This document shows, one piece after another, positions 110 to 26,962 of a DNA stretch of 27,522 bases. The first letter of the stretch is position 1, and the number at the start of each line of letters is the position of its first letter. Under the pieces are notes generated by a model. The model saw only the letters and a program-made list of their open reading frames with translations. It made no database searches and was not told the origin of the DNA. Origin of the DNA: a virus; IMG/VR virus record IMGVR_UViG_3300023210_000173, positions 1-27,522 of that record. One strand, written 5' to 3'. Made by a program: the position numbers and the translations under genes.

Positions 110-1599
110 TTGCGCCGAAAAAAAAGAATCTTTGGAACCGAGCGAAAACCGCGACCCGGATCCTCTTTAATCAAGCTCACGGATACGATGCCGCAGTCAA
201 TTCTCGCAGGAGAGCAAGGCGACAAGATACGCAAGTCCGAGCGGAACATTACGCTCTCGACTACTCGGATCGTCAAAGGGTCATTGCAACCTTGCTCGAC
301 TTCAGAAGGAACGATCCGATCGTTGCCTCGATCTGCCGACTCCGCGAGACGGACGTGATTGGGGGAGGAATCTTTCCGCAAGCTCAAACGGGCAACGAGG
401 ATCTCGACCGCAAGCTCGAGGAGAAGTGGGAGGTTTTCTCGAGGACTCCCGAGATCACGCAGACGATGAACATGAGGGAACTCCAGAGGCAACTCGCAAG
501 CCTCCCTCTGATCTTCGGGGATGGGGGGATGATCCTCCTCAAGACCGGAAGAGTCCAATTGATCGAAGGCGACAGGATCGGGACGGAGTACGAGGACGGA
601 TCCGTCCTTCGGATGAACTCGAACATCTCGGACGAGGAGGCCGACCGCAGAAAGAGAACCATCGGAGGGGTCGAACTCTCCAAGCAGAACCGACCGATTG
701 CTTATCATATCGGAACGAGAGAGGACGGGAACCTTCAAGACGTGAAGAGAATCCCGGCAAAGAATTTCATTTTTCACAAGAAACGGATCCGACCTTCTCA
801 AGTTCGAGGAGTTCCGGAACTGGCAACCGTCACGGACTCGATCCAAGACCTCAACGAGTTTGACGAGATCGAGATGCTTTCCGCGAAGGTTGCGGCCTCC
901 CTTTCCGCAGTCGTAAAAAGGGAAGGCGCACTCGATTTCGAGCTTGCTCAACGTGCGGAGGACGATCCCGAAGAAAGACTTGAAACCTTTGAGCCGGGAA
1001 CCTTTCAATATTTGGAACCGGGCGAGGATGTCTCAGTCATCGGAACCTCGGGGAGGCCGAACGTGGACGCGATCGACTATTGCGTCTATCGGATGAGAAA
1101 GATCGGAGCCGCTCTCGGGATCCCCGTGGAGTTTCTACTGATGACAATCGGCAAGAGTTCTTTCTCGGCCTCGCAAGGGATGATCCTCCTTTATCAGCAG
1201 ACAGTCGAAAGCGAGCAGAACGATCTCAAGCCAATCCTTTCCCGTCTTTGGAGGTGGAAGGTCGCGAGGTGGATCGCGGAAGGCGAGATCGAGTTCGATC
1301 CGGAGGCCGAGGATCCCTTCAACGTTCGATGGCAACCTCCCTCCTTTAGATGGGTCAATCGAGCCGCTCAAGTGAAGGCAGATGCAAGCTACATCGCGAT
1401 GGGCGCGCAGTCCCTCGATGACGTTGCCGCGACCTTCGGAACCGATGCGGCCTCCGTCCTCGAGAGAAAGGCGAAGAACATCACGACCGCAAAACGCCTC
1501 GCGGAAGAGTACGGGATCCCCGATTGGCGCGATCTTTTCAATCCAATGCCGACCACGGCTCAAGGCAACATTGTCGAGATCATGGATCGGGACGAGTAA
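106..1599 (+). CDS. Phage portal protein, lambda gpB-type
   Basis: This 497-residue protein forms the dodecameric ring at one vertex of the capsid, through which DNA is packaged and to which the tail is attached. It has the features of the lambda-type portal family (Phage_portal_2): a basic N-terminus, an early FRRNDPIVASICRLRE segment (about residues 66-81), VIGGGIFPQ (about 84-92), a central region with LIEGDRIG (about 151-158), and a C-terminal clip/crown region containing IGAALGIPVEFLL (about 334-346) and SFSASQG. Its length is close to the family norm. The start is the ATG that overlaps the stop of the preceding gene. It is followed within 25 bases by a small gene and then by protease and scaffold genes, the usual head-gene order. 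Nothing suggests a frameshift or truncation. Confidence 0.93.
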   Translation: MIAPKKKNLWNRAKTATRILFNQAHGYDAAVNSRRRARRQDTQVRAEHYALDYSDRQRVIATLLDFRRNDPIVASICRLRETDVIGGGIFPQAQTGNEDLDRKLEEKWEVFSRTPEITQTMNMRELQRQLASLPLIFGDGGMILLKTGRVQLIEGDRIGTEYEDGSVLRMNSNISDEEADRRKRTIGGVELSKQNRPIAYHIGTREDGNLQDVKRIPAKNFIFHKKRIRPSQVRGVPELATVTDSIQDLNEFDEIEMLSAKVAASLSAVVKREGALDFELAQRAEDDPEERLETFEPGTFQYLEPGEDVSVIGTSGRPNVDAIDYCVYRMRKIGAALGIPVEFLLMTIGKSSFSASQGMILLYQQTVESEQNDLKPILSRLWRWKVARWIAEGEIEFDPEAEDPFNVRWQPPSFRWVNRAAQVKADASYIAMGAQSLDDVAATFGTDAASVLERKAKNITTAKRLAEEYGIPDWRDLFNPMPTTAQGNIVEIMDRDE

Positions 1600-1620
1600 A
1601 TTGACGGAGGGACCAAAGAC

Positions 1621-1743
1621 ATGAGAGCGATTTTGAAACTGTATTTAGAGAAACCCTCCGAGGAAGTGCGCAAGCAACTGACCTCCGAGGAACAACGCCA
1701 CGCGGATCGCGTGAAGAAGTCGAAGGACAAGGGCAAGAAATAG
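1621..1743 (+). CDS. Small basic 40-residue protein between portal and protease
   Basis: ATG at 1621 follows a good ribosome binding site (GGAGGG at 1605-1610) and opens a 40-codon frame ending with TAG at 1741-1743. The protein starts MRAILKLYLEKPSEE and ends in a lysine-rich tail (KKSKDKGKK). Its last base is shared with the GTG start of the protease gene (TAGTG), a coupling arrangement. I do not recognise a family. Position suggests a head-assembly accessory or a leader that couples translation of portal and protease. Support comes from the ribosome binding site and the tight fit between neighbours. Confidence 0.65.
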   Translation: MRAILKLYLEKPSEEVRKQLTSEEQRHADRVKKSKDKGKK

Positions 1744-2906
1744 TGCCGATTCCTCGACCCACTTCATCCGAGACCGAGAAGGACTTCATCGATCGTTGCA
1801 TGAGCGACTCCGTGATGGTCTCCGAGTTTCCCGACGTGGATCAACGCCTTGCGGTCTGCAAGGTTCAAAACACTTACGGGGAAAAGATCTCGAGGATCTG
1901 CTTCCAACGAAGACCGCGGAAAAAGGTCGGGAGGTATGAGGTGAACGAGAAGGCCGGAACAATGTCCGACGTGAGTCTCATCCAGATCGGCGAGGCCAAG
2001 GGTCACGGAGTCTGGATCGATGCTCAATCTCTCGAGAGTGGTCTCGAGGTGATGGGCGGATCCTTGCCTGCATACGTGACCCACGAAGGAGCAGTCGATT
2101 CCGATCGCTTGCTCAAGGAGGTCGGACTCTTTTCGGGATTTTATATCGAGGACGGCAAGCTCAAGGCGGAGGCCTTCAAGGCGCTCGACTCCTTTCGCGT
2201 AGATGAGGCGGAAAGGTTTCGCAGGCTTTTCGATCTGGCTCGAGAGATGCCGGACGCATTCGGCCTTTCTTTAGTTTTCGAGGCCAGACTCGTCTGGGTC
2301 ATGGAAGGAGGGGAGGAGATCTCAGTCGAGGACTCCGATGGGAAAGGAGCAATCCGAGAAATCCCTTCCGTTCGATTCGTTTCCATTCGTTCCGCCGACT
2401 TTGTTGACGCTCCTGCCGCTAATAAAGAGGGACTATTTAACTCAAATCATAAAATCCAGAACATCATGGCTAAAGACAATTTAATAGAACTAAGCGCCGA
2501 GGAAGAGATTGTCCTCGATGAGGCAAACGCCGCGGAGCAATCCACCGAACCCGAGCAACTTGACGAGGAGCAACAAACCGAGATCGATCGCCTTCGCGAT
2601 GAGATGGGGAAACACGCCGATCGGCTCGATATGCTCGAAGACGGGATCGCCGACCTCAAGGAAAGACTCGCCTCGGCAAATACCGAGAACGAGGAACTCT
2701 CCACGGAGAACGAGCAACTCTCCGAAAAAACGAAAGCACTTTCTGCCGTCCTCGAGGACGGATCCGATCCGCTCGATGAGTCCTCCACCGAAGACTCGAA
2801 GACGATCGACGTGGTGGAGCAATTCAACACGGCAAGCGGCGCAGAAAAAACTCAACTCTGGAAACAGAACAAGCAAGCAATTCTTCAAAGCTATCGCAGG
2901 AGATAA
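1743..2906 (+). CDS. Prohead maturation protease fused to a C-terminal scaffold domain
   Basis: GTG start; 387 residues in three parts. Residues 1-60 hold a short motif seen in several phage head proteins (FIDRCMSD, then EFPDVDQRLAVC). Residues about 75-235 resemble the herpesvirus-assemblin-like/HK97-type prohead proteases: GHGVWIDAQSL (88-98), a candidate catalytic histidine at 114 in YVTHEG, a candidate catalytic serine at 176 in FGLSLVFEA, and the family-typical end ADFVDAPAANKEGLF (218-232). Residues about 243-387 are acidic and predicted coiled coil, as expected for a scaffold. Such enzymes cleave scaffold and capsid proteins inside the prohead. Base composition becomes AT-rich at the junction (about 2415-2495). 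The catalytic residues are inferred from motif position and not from an alignment. Confidence 0.8.
   Translation: MPIPRPTSSETEKDFIDRCMSDSVMVSEFPDVDQRLAVCKVQNTYGEKISRICFQRRPRKKVGRYEVNEKAGTMSDVSLIQIGEAKGHGVWIDAQSLESGLEVMGGSLPAYVTHEGAVDSDRLLKEVGLFSGFYIEDGKLKAEAFKALDSFRVDEAERFRRLFDLAREMPDAFGLSLVFEARLVWVMEGGEEISVEDSDGKGAIREIPSVRFVSIRSADFVDAPAANKEGLFNSNHKIQNIMAKDNLIELSAEEEIVLDEANAAEQSTEPEQLDEEQQTEIDRLRDEMGKHADRLDMLEDGIADLKERLASANTENEELSTENEQLSEKTKALSAVLEDGSDPLDESSTEDSKTIDVVEQFNTASGAEKTQLWKQNKQAILQSYRRR
2466..2906 (+). CDS. Probable nested capsid scaffold protein, in-frame internal start
   Basis: An in-frame ATG at codon 242 of the protease gene would give a separate 146-residue protein beginning MAKDNLIEL. 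The sequence is strongly acidic and heptad-like (for example LDMLEDGIADLKERLA and ENEELSTENEQLSEK), which fits a coiled-coil scaffold that guides capsid assembly. In lambda, the Nu3 scaffold is made from an internal in-frame start inside protease gene C, so the arrangement has a precedent. The start lies directly after the conserved end of the protease domain, in an unusually AT-rich stretch. No strong Shine-Dalgarno sequence is visible before 2466, so the internal start is an inference from domain layout. Confidence 0.5.
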   Translation: MAKDNLIELSAEEEIVLDEANAAEQSTEPEQLDEEQQTEIDRLRDEMGKHADRLDMLEDGIADLKERLASANTENEELSTENEQLSEKTKALSAVLEDGSDPLDESSTEDSKTIDVVEQFNTASGAEKTQLWKQNKQAILQSYRRR

Positions 2907-2912
2907 AAAGTC

Positions 2913-3815
2913 ATGGCGAACACAATCAACACAGAACTACAGAACAATATCATCGCGCAGTCGGCGCTTGAGCAATTTACGAGCATCCTTGCTCCTCTGA
3001 ATGCCTTCTCGACTTCGTTCAATGACGATGCCGCGGAACGAGGCAAGACGATCTCGATCCCGACCATCTCGAACACCTCGAGCGCAACGTCCTTCTCCGT
3101 TGCAGGCAATACCTACTCCGCAATGAACACGACTTATGGATCTACGCAGATCACTCTCGATCAGCATCTTTTCGTGAGTTGGCACGTCACGGACACCGAG
3201 GTCTCTCAATCTTCATCGGTCGAGCTTCAGCGATTCGGCTACCAGAAAGGCGGAGATCTCGCAAAAGCGGTCTTTGAAGACATCCTCGGGGAAGTCACAA
3301 ATGCGAAATATTCTTCCAAGATTACTGTGACGGCGGCAGACTTCGATGCTGATGAAGTCGCCGATCTTCGTGAAGACGGTCTCGATCAAAACCTGTATCC
3401 AGACCAATGTTCGCTAGTTCTGCAAAATACATATTTTACGAGCCTGCTCAAGGACACCGACATCTCTCACGCGATGAATTACGGATCCGCGGAAGTGATT
3501 CAAGGCGGAAGAGTTCCTAGTCTCTTTGGAATCAAGTCGATTTACGAGTCGAACGCAGTCCCGACAAATAGCGAGAACCTTAAAGGATTCTATGCTCATC
3601 CGTCTGCGCTTGCGGTCGCGATCCGTTACCTTCAGCCGACCAACACTTCCGGCTACATTTCAACGCAACGCCTAACAGACGAGGCCTCCGGGATCGTCAT
3701 GGGTTACCGAGAGTTTTATGAAGAGTCCACCGGGACTCAAACCGCAGTCCTCGAGTGCGTCTACGGCAAGAAGGTCGCCATTGATGGGAACTTGATCCGA
3801 ATCGTTTCGGCATAA
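2913..3815 (+). CDS. Major capsid protein
   Basis: This 300-residue protein begins MANTINTELQNNIIAQ, preceded by GGAG at 2899-2902. It directly follows the scaffold region, the standard place for the coat gene. The N-terminal third contains ERGKTISIPTI and is rich in Ser/Thr/Ala. The middle contains ADFDADEVADLRE, and the C-terminus ends in beta-rich AVLECVYGKKVAIDGNLIR. This pattern (short N-arm, helix with AKAVFEDIL, late Tyr/Gly-rich strands) is typical of HK97-fold coat proteins of the P22/N4-like branch. It should form the icosahedral shell. There is no sign of a frameshift or truncation. Confidence 0.88.
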   Translation: MANTINTELQNNIIAQSALEQFTSILAPLNAFSTSFNDDAAERGKTISIPTISNTSSATSFSVAGNTYSAMNTTYGSTQITLDQHLFVSWHVTDTEVSQSSSVELQRFGYQKGGDLAKAVFEDILGEVTNAKYSSKITVTAADFDADEVADLREDGLDQNLYPDQCSLVLQNTYFTSLLKDTDISHAMNYGSAEVIQGGRVPSLFGIKSIYESNAVPTNSENLKGFYAHPSALAVAIRYLQPTNTSGYISTQRLTDEASGIVMGYREFYEESTGTQTAVLECVYGKKVAIDGNLIRIVSA

Positions 3816-23776: not shown

Positions 23777-24542
23777 TCCTCAACGCCTCGCGGAGCCTTT
23801 CCGAGTTCCGGACGGGGTGGACGTGTCAATCGATGACTGCGAGCATCCCTGCAAGGTTTGCGGCAAGTCTATTCCGTACAACTCGACCCTTCAGTCCCTC
23901 GGATGGGGGAAAGGCCTCGTCTGCGATCCTTGCTTTGCCGCAAGGGATCAAGTGACCAAGGCCGAGCCGATCAACATCGTGACCCCTCAAGTGGAGATTA
24001 ATCGGCTCATCCCTCCCCTTTACCGAGAAACGGATCCCGAGCGTCTCCCCTATGCCGAGAGGCAAGCGGTCGTTTCATGGCATCCGGGGAGGAGCAAGGG
24101 TCTTTGGATCCACGGGGAGACCAGACGAGGCAAGACTCGATCGATGTGCCTCCTGCTCGAGAAGTTGATTCGAGAAGGCAAAAAGGTTCGAGCGTTCTTC
24201 CACGGATCCTTCGGGGTGGATCTGGTCGAGGTCATGCGATCGGAGAGATCCTTCCGAGCTTGGAAGTGGGAGATCACTCGAGCAGACGTCCTTGTCATCG
24301 ATGACCTCTTTGCCGACAAGATCACCGAACGGATCGAGACCGCGATCTTCGAGATCTTTGACGAGAGGATCTCCTTCAATCGTCCGACCATCGTCACGAC
24401 TCAAATGACGAAGAAGCGAGCAAAGGATCGTTTCCACTCGGAGGCTCGATGCGATGCCTTCTTTGCAAGGATCAAGGAGTTCTTTCAAGGGGTGAGGTTC
24501 ACGCAAGACTTGCAGACGGAACTCGAGGAGGTCGCGGCATGA
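23745..24542 (+). CDS. DnaC/IstB-like AAA+ helicase loader
   Basis: ATG 23745 gives 265 residues and overlaps the end of the initiator gene by 32 bases; an ATG at 23757 is the alternative. The N-terminus has a zinc-finger-like pattern, CEHPCKVCG (32-40) and CDPC (60-63). The ATPase has Walker A GETRRGKTRS (124-133), Walker B DVLVIDDLF (181-189) and a sensor-1-like PTIVTTQ. This is the DnaC-type arrangement, which opens the ring of the replicative helicase at the origin. No replicative helicase is encoded here, so the phage probably loads host DnaB. The gene ends with an ATGA overlap into the next gene. Confidence 0.88.
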   Translation: MSQTMTTPSTNPQRLAEPFRVPDGVDVSIDDCEHPCKVCGKSIPYNSTLQSLGWGKGLVCDPCFAARDQVTKAEPINIVTPQVEINRLIPPLYRETDPERLPYAERQAVVSWHPGRSKGLWIHGETRRGKTRSMCLLLEKLIREGKKVRAFFHGSFGVDLVEVMRSERSFRAWKWEITRADVLVIDDLFADKITERIETAIFEIFDERISFNRPTIVTTQMTKKRAKDRFHSEARCDAFFARIKEFFQGVRFTQDLQTELEEVAA

Positions 24543-24910
24543 TTATGATCCCCGAAAACGAAAGAAGAGGAAAAATAAGAAAGAAACTTGAAGGGAAGAC
24601 ACTTGAAGAACTTGAAAAGATAAAAAAGGAAACAAGAGATAGTAACATTCGTACCATGAGCCATTTGCTCGCCGAGCAATGCAGACCTTCCGCGCATTAT
24701 TACTCTTCCCAAATAAGGAAATCGATAAAGAGATTAGGGCATTACATTTCAGCCGCGAATCATGTTATCGCTCAAACTCCTTGGAAGGAAATTCCGTCAC
24801 CATTGCAGGATCTTCTAAAAAACGCGCACTTAATTGATGAACTAAAAGATGGGTTGCATGGGTTCCTAGAAGATCTTTGCGAAAGTGAATTTGAGGAGGA
24901 TGACGCATGA
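24539..24910 (+). CDS. Hypothetical helical protein with AT-rich foreign-looking composition
   Basis: A 123-residue protein starting at an ATG overlapping the loader stop. It is basic and helical at first (RKKLEGKTLEELEKIKKETR), with a middle MSHLLAEQCRPSAHYYSSQI and an acidic end (LEDLCESEFEEDDA). The gene uses AGA, AAA, ATA, TTA and CTT codons heavily, unlike its CTC/GAG-rich neighbours, and is visibly AT-richer. That points to recent acquisition, although the ATGA overlaps at both ends keep it within the operon. No family was recognised. It may be an added gene of the moron type. Confidence 0.6.
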   Translation: MIMIPENERRGKIRKKLEGKTLEELEKIKKETRDSNIRTMSHLLAEQCRPSAHYYSSQIRKSIKRLGHYISAANHVIAQTPWKEIPSPLQDLLKNAHLIDELKDGLHGFLEDLCESEFEEDDA

Positions 24911-25410
24911 AACACCGTTGCAACTACACCCGGCTTGAGCCGATCGAGAAGGTCATCCCGAACCCTCGGAACCCGAACACTCACCCGGAAGGCCAGATCG
25001 AACTCCTCGCCAAGATCATTGACTTTCAAGGATGGAGATCCCCCATCGTGGTCTCGAAGAGTTCCGGGTTCATAGTCCGGGGGCATGGTCGCCTCCTCGC
25101 GGCTCAACGGCTCGGACTCAAGAAGGTTCCGATCGACGTCCAGACCTACGACAACGAGGCGCAGGAATGGGCGGATCTGGTTGCCGACAATCGGATCGCC
25201 GAACTTGCCGAGATGGATCGGGCGACCCTCAAGGACTTGATCGAGGAACTCGACACGGGAGATCTCGATCTCGATCTGACCGGGTTCGATCAAGACAGTC
25301 TCGAGGATCTGATGAGCGAGTTCCACGTCCCGGATGACAACGAGGGCATCGATGAGGACGGAATGAGCGACACCGAGCAAGAATGTCCTTCCTGCGGATT
25401 CAAGTGGTGA
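24907..25410 (+). CDS. ParB/Srx-like nuclease-fold protein with a C-terminal CxxC
   Basis: A 167-residue protein. The N-terminal ParB-like domain includes VIPNPRNPNTHPEGQIELLA (16-35), RSPIVVSKSSGFIVRGHGR (44-62, with the GHGR box) and LLAAQRLGLKKVPIDVQ. A helical acidic middle follows (EWADLVADNRIAELAEMDRA). The C-terminus ends ECPSCGFKW, a single Cys-x-x-Cys reminiscent of a truncated zinc ribbon. In phages, such free-standing ParB-like domains commonly neighbour or fuse with DNA methyltransferases, and a methyltransferase gene follows by one-base overlap. Its role may be DNA nicking, target recognition or CTP-linked binding; this cannot be resolved from sequence. Confidence 0.78.
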   Translation: MKHRCNYTRLEPIEKVIPNPRNPNTHPEGQIELLAKIIDFQGWRSPIVVSKSSGFIVRGHGRLLAAQRLGLKKVPIDVQTYDNEAQEWADLVADNRIAELAEMDRATLKDLIEELDTGDLDLDLTGFDQDSLEDLMSEFHVPDDNEGIDEDGMSDTEQECPSCGFKW

Positions 25411-26351
25411 TGAGACTCCATCCGAGACCGCAGACGAGGCCGATGACAGTCCGGGAGGCGTGGGCGGATTTGGAGGACAATCCGATCGATTGCCCGAAGT
25501 TGTCGTCGAAGTATGTCGATTATTTGAAGCAGGCAAAGGGAGGAGATCCTGTCGGTCTGTTTTTTTCCGACTGTCGCCTAGACTTCAATCGTCCCTCTTT
25601 TGTGCTTCGAAAAGGAAGACAGGGAGGCGGAATCTTTCACCCTTCAGAAAGTCGTTATTGCACGTCTGCGGAGATCAAGATCTTGGGATCTTTCCCGGAC
25701 TCCTTTAGGTTCGGAACATATAAAAATGCAGTTCAGAGAATCGGGAACTCCGTCCCCCCGAAACTCATGGAGGCAATCGCCCGACATATTCGCAAGGAGA
25801 TCCTCAAGACCCCCGGCAAGCCGACCGTGATCTCAACCTTCGCAGGGGGGGGAGGGTCATCTCTCGGCTATCATCAAGCAGGATTCGAGGAACTTCTCGC
25901 CGTGGAGTGGGATGACGATGCAGTCCGGACGCTCCGGGACAACTTTCCCGACCTGCAAGTCTATCATGGAGACATCAAGGACTTGTCGGTCGAAGAATGC
26001 CTCAACCTTGCAGGCATCAAGCCGGGGGATCTGGACGTCTTTGACGGATCTCCTCCTTGCCAAGGATTCTCTGACGCCAATCGGAGCAGGAAGCTCGACG
26101 ACCCTAGGAACTCTCTTTTCGGGGAGTTTGTCCGACTGCTCGAGGGTCTCAAGCCGAAGGTCTTCGTTATGGAGAACGTCAAGGGCATGATCAAGGGAGC
26201 AATGAAGCAGATCTTTTTGCAGATCATGGCATCACTTCGGGGAGCAGGTTATCACGTCGAGGCTCAAGTGATGAATGCGAAACATTACGGAGTCCCTCAA
26301 AGTCGAGAGAGGGTCATCTTTATCGGCCTGCGAAAGGACTTGATCAAATGA
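25410..26351 (+). CDS. Circularly permuted C5-cytosine DNA methyltransferase
   Basis: ATG 25410 shares a base with the ParB-like stop and gives 313 residues; an earlier ATG at 25383 lies inside that gene. All key motifs are present but in rotated order. The N-terminal part contains TVREAWADLEDNP, a variable stretch, then RYCTSAEIKILGSFPD (82-97, motif IX-like) and RIGNSVPPKLMEAI (110-123, motif X). Motif I STFAGGGGSSLGYHQAG (142-158), motif IV DGSPPCQGFSDANR (212-225) with catalytic Cys217, motif VI VFVMENVKG (251-259) and motif VIII PQSRERVIFIGLR (297-309) follow. The order IX-X-I-IV-VI-VIII matches the permuted M.BssHII type. It probably protects phage DNA from host restriction; no cognate restriction enzyme is seen. 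Confidence 0.9.
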   Translation: MRLHPRPQTRPMTVREAWADLEDNPIDCPKLSSKYVDYLKQAKGGDPVGLFFSDCRLDFNRPSFVLRKGRQGGGIFHPSESRYCTSAEIKILGSFPDSFRFGTYKNAVQRIGNSVPPKLMEAIARHIRKEILKTPGKPTVISTFAGGGGSSLGYHQAGFEELLAVEWDDDAVRTLRDNFPDLQVYHGDIKDLSVEECLNLAGIKPGDLDVFDGSPPCQGFSDANRSRKLDDPRNSLFGEFVRLLEGLKPKVFVMENVKGMIKGAMKQIFLQIMASLRGAGYHVEAQVMNAKHYGVPQSRERVIFIGLRKDLIK

Positions 26352-26962
26352 AGACCCCACCCCCTCAAGCCTTGCACGTCGACCATGACCCTCCGGGGGG
26401 GGATGACTTCATGCTCCTGCATGGCAGGATGATGACGCTCAAGAAGCACGGCATCGAGGCCATGAGTCCCCACGACATCCGCAACGGATACAAACCTCGA
26501 GACATTATCCGACTCATCCTCGGGCAAATCCTCGCCCATTACCGCACCCTCGAGGCAGAAATGAAGAGGGAGGGGGGGGGTGAATGGCGAGACCTTCTCG
26601 GAACCTTTCGGCCTGCATACTTGCTCGAGGAAGAGATCCGAAGACTTGAAACAGAACGCAACAACCTATACGAAACAATGCAACCAGACGGAAAGCAAGC
26701 CGGAGGAACTCCTCCACCAATCCAACCGAAGGACGAGGCGACCAAGATCCTCGACCTCTGCATCTCGATCCGACAGGCGAAGCAGACAATCGCCTCTCAA
26801 CTCCGAGACCTACGGAAGGAGGCAAAGCAGAAGATCAACGCCTTGAGCAAGGCCGAGACCGCTCTCCTCGACACCGTGGACGAGAAGCAGACCTATCTCT
26901 TCGATCTGGATCCGACAGTCACCGAGGAAGTGAACGCGATTATCTCGAATCCCGAGATTTGA
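26348..26962 (+). CDS. Coiled-coil protein of unknown function containing G8 and G9 runs
   Basis: A 204-residue protein starting at an ATG that overlaps the methyltransferase stop. It has a helical N-terminal half (HGRMMTLKKHGIEAMSPHDI, then PRDIIRLILGQILAHYRTLE), a proline-rich break (QAGGTPPPIQPKDEA) and a long coiled coil (LDLCISIRQAKQTIASQLRD, KEAKQKINALSKAETALLD). Runs of eight G (26395-26402) and nine G (26572-26580) lie inside the frame and are slippage-prone. No family was recognised. Its location before the candidate small terminase could suggest a packaging or regulatory role, but this is only positional. Confidence 0.6.
   Translation: MKTPPPQALHVDHDPPGGDDFMLLHGRMMTLKKHGIEAMSPHDIRNGYKPRDIIRLILGQILAHYRTLEAEMKREGGGEWRDLLGTFRPAYLLEEEIRRLETERNNLYETMQPDGKQAGGTPPPIQPKDEATKILDLCISIRQAKQTIASQLRDLRKEAKQKINALSKAETALLDTVDEKQTYLFDLDPTVTEEVNAIISNPEI

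Follow-up and report, generated by a model that had tools for sequence, protein, structure and literature searches.

The window examined here, a 27,522-nt stretch of viral DNA, carries genes for a portal, a major head protein, a tape measure protein, an integrase, and Erf, and was therefore assigned to a temperate tailed phage. On its plus strand, at 25410-26351, lies the gene for a circularly permuted C5-cytosine DNA methyltransferase of 313 aa, recognized from Pfam PF00145 matches in swapped order and from an AlphaFold2 model. The frame is open and intact; its ATG shares one base with the stop codon of the gene upstream (TGATG), and its stop codon in turn overlaps the ATG of the gene downstream (ATGA at 26348), as in a tight, working phage operon. 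The upstream partner (24907-25410, plus strand) encodes a ParB-like protein of 167 aa (ParB_N, E = 1.2e-6), which agrees with the original prediction of a ParB-like gene at this position, and ends in a Cys-pair tail, CPSCGFKW. A family search with the downstream gene (26348-26962, plus strand) gave no convincing family, and a remnant of a lost C-terminal module, looked for downstream of the methyltransferase gene, was not found. Upstream of the ParB-like gene, an ORF of 122 aa (24542-24910) has a GC content of 0.40, against 0.535 for the genome, and no convincing family; on these two grounds it is possibly foreign. The GC content of the N-terminal module of the methyltransferase (0.52) is ordinary for the genome, and composition does not support a recent foreign origin of that module. 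The portal gene occupies 85-1599, and the stretches inspected showed no terminase; terminase-like genes come after the methyltransferase in several related loci, so the genome may be incomplete and the window contig may be broken at that point.

Motifs I, IV (PPC), VI (ENV), VIII (QxRxR), IX, and X of C5 methyltransferases are all present in the protein, in an unusual order. Residues 1-136 (25410-25817) form a small-domain module, TRD-IX-X, delimited by a match to Pfam positions 269-323, by Foldseek, and by sequence similarity to the related locus L149. Within this module the target-recognition region (residues 22-70, 25473-25619, limits estimated), which varies among relatives, sits between a conserved HPRPQ..P start and motif IX (TSAEIKILGSFPDSF; 25662-25706), followed by motif X (RIGNSVPPKLMEAIARHI; RIGNSVPP; 25737-25790). 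The catalytic core (residues 137-313, 25818-26348) then holds motif I (25833-25886), motif IV with the catalytic Cys (GSPPCQGFS; 26034-26072), motif VI (MENV; 26157-26189), and motif VIII (PQSRERVIFIG; 26295-26327), all on the plus strand, and the chain stops 7 residues beyond the last of these. With a short TRD ahead of motif IX, the order is thus TRD-IX-X-I-II-III-IV-V-VI-VII-VIII. PF00145 (DNA_methylase) matches the protein twice with the order swapped, both pieces scoring above the cut-off; taken alone, the N-terminal piece matches positions 269-323 (E = 3.8e-8) and the C-terminal piece positions 2-166 (E = 1.2e-52). As each piece passes Pfam alone and the ORF overlaps both neighbors, chance or a frame artefact can be ruled out, and so can a two-polypeptide C5 methyltransferase of the M.AquI kind, since the core and motifs IX-X share one ORF. 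The original prediction, that motifs IX and X (GNSVPP) precede motif I, that motif VIII ends the protein, and that everything lies in a single 313-residue frame with no split or frameshift, is borne out by the motif coordinates and the swapped Pfam matches.

The start of the chain aligns about six residues past motif VIII of linear enzymes, that is, between motif VIII and the TRD. By 2018, 27 natural permuted C5 enzymes were listed in REBASE, and in all those known at the time the break falls within the variable region, in most of them between motif VIII and the TRD (‘Type H’; PMC5944983). The window enzyme, with motif X before motif I in one polypeptide, has exactly the Type H topology and belongs to a known kind, as the original prediction supposed when it pointed to the M.BssHII type; its remark that such enzymes are few holds only in a relative sense, given the 27 in REBASE and the further cases found here. 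M.BssHII, M.Alw26I, M2.Eco31I, M.Esp3I, and M2.BsaI share this arrangement and belong to restriction-modification systems, whereas the window enzyme is an orphan from a phage, follows a ParB-like gene, has a very short TRD, and groups by its core with linear phage enzymes.

Structure prediction, which had been proposed as a check, was run on the full chain with a 68-row alignment, and AlphaFold2 returned one confident two-domain enzyme (pLDDT 93.2, pTM 0.92). The weakest stretch of the model, about residues 211-230, falls where C5 enzymes have their mobile catalytic loop. In Foldseek, the full model matched 8yf3, M.HaeIII, and M.HhaI over the core only (TM near 0.5), because Foldseek aligns in chain order. 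Residues 1-136 modeled alone (pLDDT 88.9) matched 8yf3 best, over 142 columns with a TMq of 0.70, and other solved C5 enzymes over a shorter part; among solved structures, 8yf3 is the nearest to the core and to the module alike. The contrary case, an N-terminus that is not the TRD and motif X part of the same enzyme, was looked for and not found, because the full model is confident and the N-terminal piece matches both the small domain of C5 enzymes and the C-terminal modules of linear ones. The models therefore support the N-terminal TRD-IX-X segment being the small, DNA-reading domain of the same enzyme. Folded in this way, it would give its motif X helix to the C-terminal core and complete the usual two-domain enzyme.

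Viral contigs and bacterial genomes were scanned with the core and with whole proteins, yielding about 300 loci, and 174 distinct cores were sorted into architecture classes with two HMMs, which covered the core (I-VIII) and the IX-X module, respectively. Most are linear (149/174). Nine have a recognition module at both ends, and a further double-module enzyme, L307, was found later; its N-terminal module is the best viral match to that of the window (43% over 128 aa). Seven have an N-terminal module, five of them plain permuted and two (L004 and L235) with a detached second module behind. Another seven have free-standing modules, at least two after the core ORF in five cases and one in the other two, with up to three per core, and the remaining two, on short contigs, have no module. 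The double form of L120 recurs in the assemblies L256 and L259, and the permuted form of L063 in L064; recurrence in independent assemblies argues against assembly chimeras. In L004 (1544-3016), an N-terminal module is followed by a linear-type N-terminal leader (DYPAHLAAMW...) and then the core, and the second module region of this double-module methyltransferase contains an in-frame TAG, after which the rest is open in frame to 3016. In L235 (2989-4535), the N-terminal module and core share one ORF and a second module lies directly behind in another frame, which may reflect a frameshift, a natural split, or an assembly error. Three loci, L258 (698-2803), L260 (2950-5037), and L267 (2950-5037), have a core-only ORF and three separate TRD-IX-X ORFs behind a ParB gene, and fall in a supported clade with L255 and L093 (99/94). 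In L260, the first module may start on a TTG overlapping the core end, the second starts on ATG (MNLHPQPW...), and the third on TTG. To our knowledge, there is no known case of a core followed by three free modules. Separable cores and small domains are also seen in M.AquI and M.EcoHK31I, which consist of two polypeptides (PMC3404938), whereas in the split relatives found here a core can be accompanied by as many as three free modules, and the window gene encodes a single chain.

The ParB-like gene ties these forms together. Of the 147 related loci whose sequence extends 1 kb or more upstream of the core, 140 have it directly upstream, and every permuted locus is one of these. The linear phage C5 methyltransferases at this locus (L069, L070, L149, and gp003 of Aphanizomenon phage CL131) belong to the same family, have the ParB neighbor, a core about 60-70% identical to that of the window, and an equivalent TRD-IX-X module; their module, however, is C-terminal, in the normal order I to X, while that of the window is N-terminal. 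In L069 and L070, the nearest by tree, the ParB-like protein ends in ...CPKCGFKW and the linear methyltransferase core starts at once, whereas in the window the TRD-IX-X module is interposed after the ParB end CPSCGFKW and the protein stops just past motif VIII. This comparison shows the rearrangement in place.

The N-terminal module of the window is closest to the C-terminal modules of linear enzymes (47% identity with L149 over 131 aa). Their alignment begins about six residues beyond motif VIII, where the other complete cases break as well. Self-duplication as the source of N-terminal modules in double enzymes is in general unsupported: these modules match the C-terminal modules of other enzymes at least as well as they match those of their own chain, and that of L080, for example, shares 75% identity over 144 aa with the C-terminal module of L252 and has only a 41-aa match to its own. 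Gain of a second, different module followed by loss is thus likelier than self-duplication, and the more likely route would be such a gain, or fusion with the remnant of a neighboring enzyme, and then loss; the linear-type leader behind the N-terminal module of L004 supports the fusion version. Under this scheme, a TRD-IX-X module from a related enzyme would have been placed ahead of the core to make a double-module enzyme, which would then have lost its original C-terminal module to become permuted. Because the trees do not show direction, we infer the order of these steps. The architecture changes might instead reflect exchange of cores, although the relative position of module and core changes either way.

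On a core tree of 95 rows, which shows changes of state and not their direction, the permuted label changes four times and the double-module label nine times; well-supported branches force at least three and at least five of these changes, respectively. The most similar core to that of the window (73% identical) is linear, and a close permuted relative is absent among the relatives found. Horizontal transfer of the permutation from known permuted restriction-modification enzymes of the Alw26I/Eco31I/BssHII kind is very improbable, even though the window breaks at the same point (VIII | TRD) as the known natural permuted enzymes (PMC5944983). Its core groups with the linear enzymes that phages carry at this locus and lies far from distant permuted enzymes such as that of Thermus phage phiLo and the Alw26I-like plasmid enzyme L314, which fall outside the phage clade (99/99) in a tree that includes L314 without M.BssHII and in which, owing to long branches, the mutual order of the distant enzymes is unsure; the nearest relatives of its module also argue against such inheritance. 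Descent from Alw26I-like permuted enzymes is thus disfavored by the core tree, and given the grouping of the core with linear phage enzymes, a topology in common with known permuted enzymes does not imply shared ancestry. A single clade of all seven permuted cores was rejected (AU p=0.0001). A narrower proposal, one permutation in a subclade of the window, L003, L063, and L160 followed by reversions or gene replacement, is possible but rather doubtful. Such a clade is not rejected by AU tests (p=0.147 and p=0.0855), and the ParB genes of all four have a similar CPxC-(F/Y)(K/R)W tail. However, the best trees place the window core with four linear enzymes (96/94; 95/87 in a second tree), apart from L003, L063, and L160; L003 and L063 adjoin the linear CL131 and L143 in the 95-row tree, and the modules of L003 and L160 resemble the C-terminal module of CL131 more than they do the module of the window.

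What the enzyme does was weighed in the same way. Phage genes often decay, and the second modules of L004 and L235 look partly broken, so the permuted gene might be inactive or decaying, an enzyme without a C-terminal module that no longer methylates. There is little likelihood of this: all catalytic motifs of the window enzyme are intact, its ORF is embedded between overlapping neighbors as a working operon would have it, and its model is confident nearly throughout. Further, the related permuted pair L003/L063 has dN/dS of about 0.13 for the module and 0.09 for the core, values that come with dS near saturation and that indicate purifying selection on both parts. A different activity is suggested by the closest solved structure, 8yf3. 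This is the DNA cytosine carboxymethyltransferase SpCmoX from Synechococcus phage S-B43, and its homologues are also located near ParB genes (PMC12783734). In CmoX, Arg350 replaces Asn304 of M.HhaI and contacts the carboxymethyl group of Cx-SAM (PMC12783734). Of the solved structures, SpCmoX is nearest to the window enzyme in both core and module, but it is linear and has the motif X Arg, whereas the permuted window enzyme has Asn113 at that position, as in M.HhaI. Transfer of carboxymethyl by the window enzyme is therefore extremely unlikely, and Asn113 predicts ordinary methylation with SAM as donor. Where the motif X residue could be read by a simple pattern among the relatives, it was Asn in 149 and Arg in 2; the Arg was seen in L194 and L196, two Verrucomicrobia relatives (RLGRAVPP).

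The reading preferred here, which we hold to be quite likely, is that a temperate tailed phage carries here the gene for a functional C5-cytosine methyltransferase, and that the rotation of this enzyme arose among the linear enzymes of the ParB-methyltransferase locus. Phage-borne C5 methyltransferases commonly protect phage DNA against host restriction. By analogy, this is most likely also the role of the window enzyme, which would methylate a short cytosine-containing site in the DNA of its own phage and so shield it. A target guess from depleted 4-base palindromes in the 27.5 kb of the window gave nothing convincing; the commonest such palindromes in it by far are GATC (400) and TCGA (409), and GTAC is depleted (10 seen, 21.5 expected).

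How C5 methyltransferase permutations arise has so far been argued from models and laboratory evolution. A duplication-and-truncation model and its laboratory support are cited in PMC5944983, and the permutation-by-duplication experiments on M.HaeIII, as represented there (reference 14 of PMC5944983), reach the same end topology through a proposed duplicated, truncated intermediate; those experiments were laboratory evolution, whereas the double-module forms here occur in nature and have their two modules from different relatives. The present locus brings together linear, double, partly broken double, and permuted relatives with cores roughly 55-75% identical, which makes the duplication route testable on natural sequences, and close relatives in normal, double, and split forms allow the rotation to be followed in nature. 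The double-module enzymes look like living intermediates of permutation, and the N-terminal module resembles a specificity cartridge that can be relocated. The literature searched contained no description of one phage locus at which linear, double, split, multi-module, and permuted forms all occur. What is new is the setting: the enzymes with the nearest cores are linear, come from phages, and occupy this very locus, directly after the ParB-like gene. M.phiBssHII, with recognition domains reportedly at separated places, may come closest in function to the double-module forms.

Both the double-module and the free-module forms point to a simple means by which phages could swap methylation specificity. 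We would give even chances to a broader proposal, that TRD-IX-X is a cartridge moving between relatives, that the core works with one, two, or three of them, fused in front, behind, or on both sides, or free, that phages thereby change or widen their sites, and that the window enzyme keeps only the front one. An apparent permuted match in L317 spans two adjacent linear genes and was left out of the counts. This locus, from a Ruminococcus phage, carries the two linear C5 methyltransferase genes in tandem (649-3039), an arrangement from which deletion could yield a permuted enzyme.
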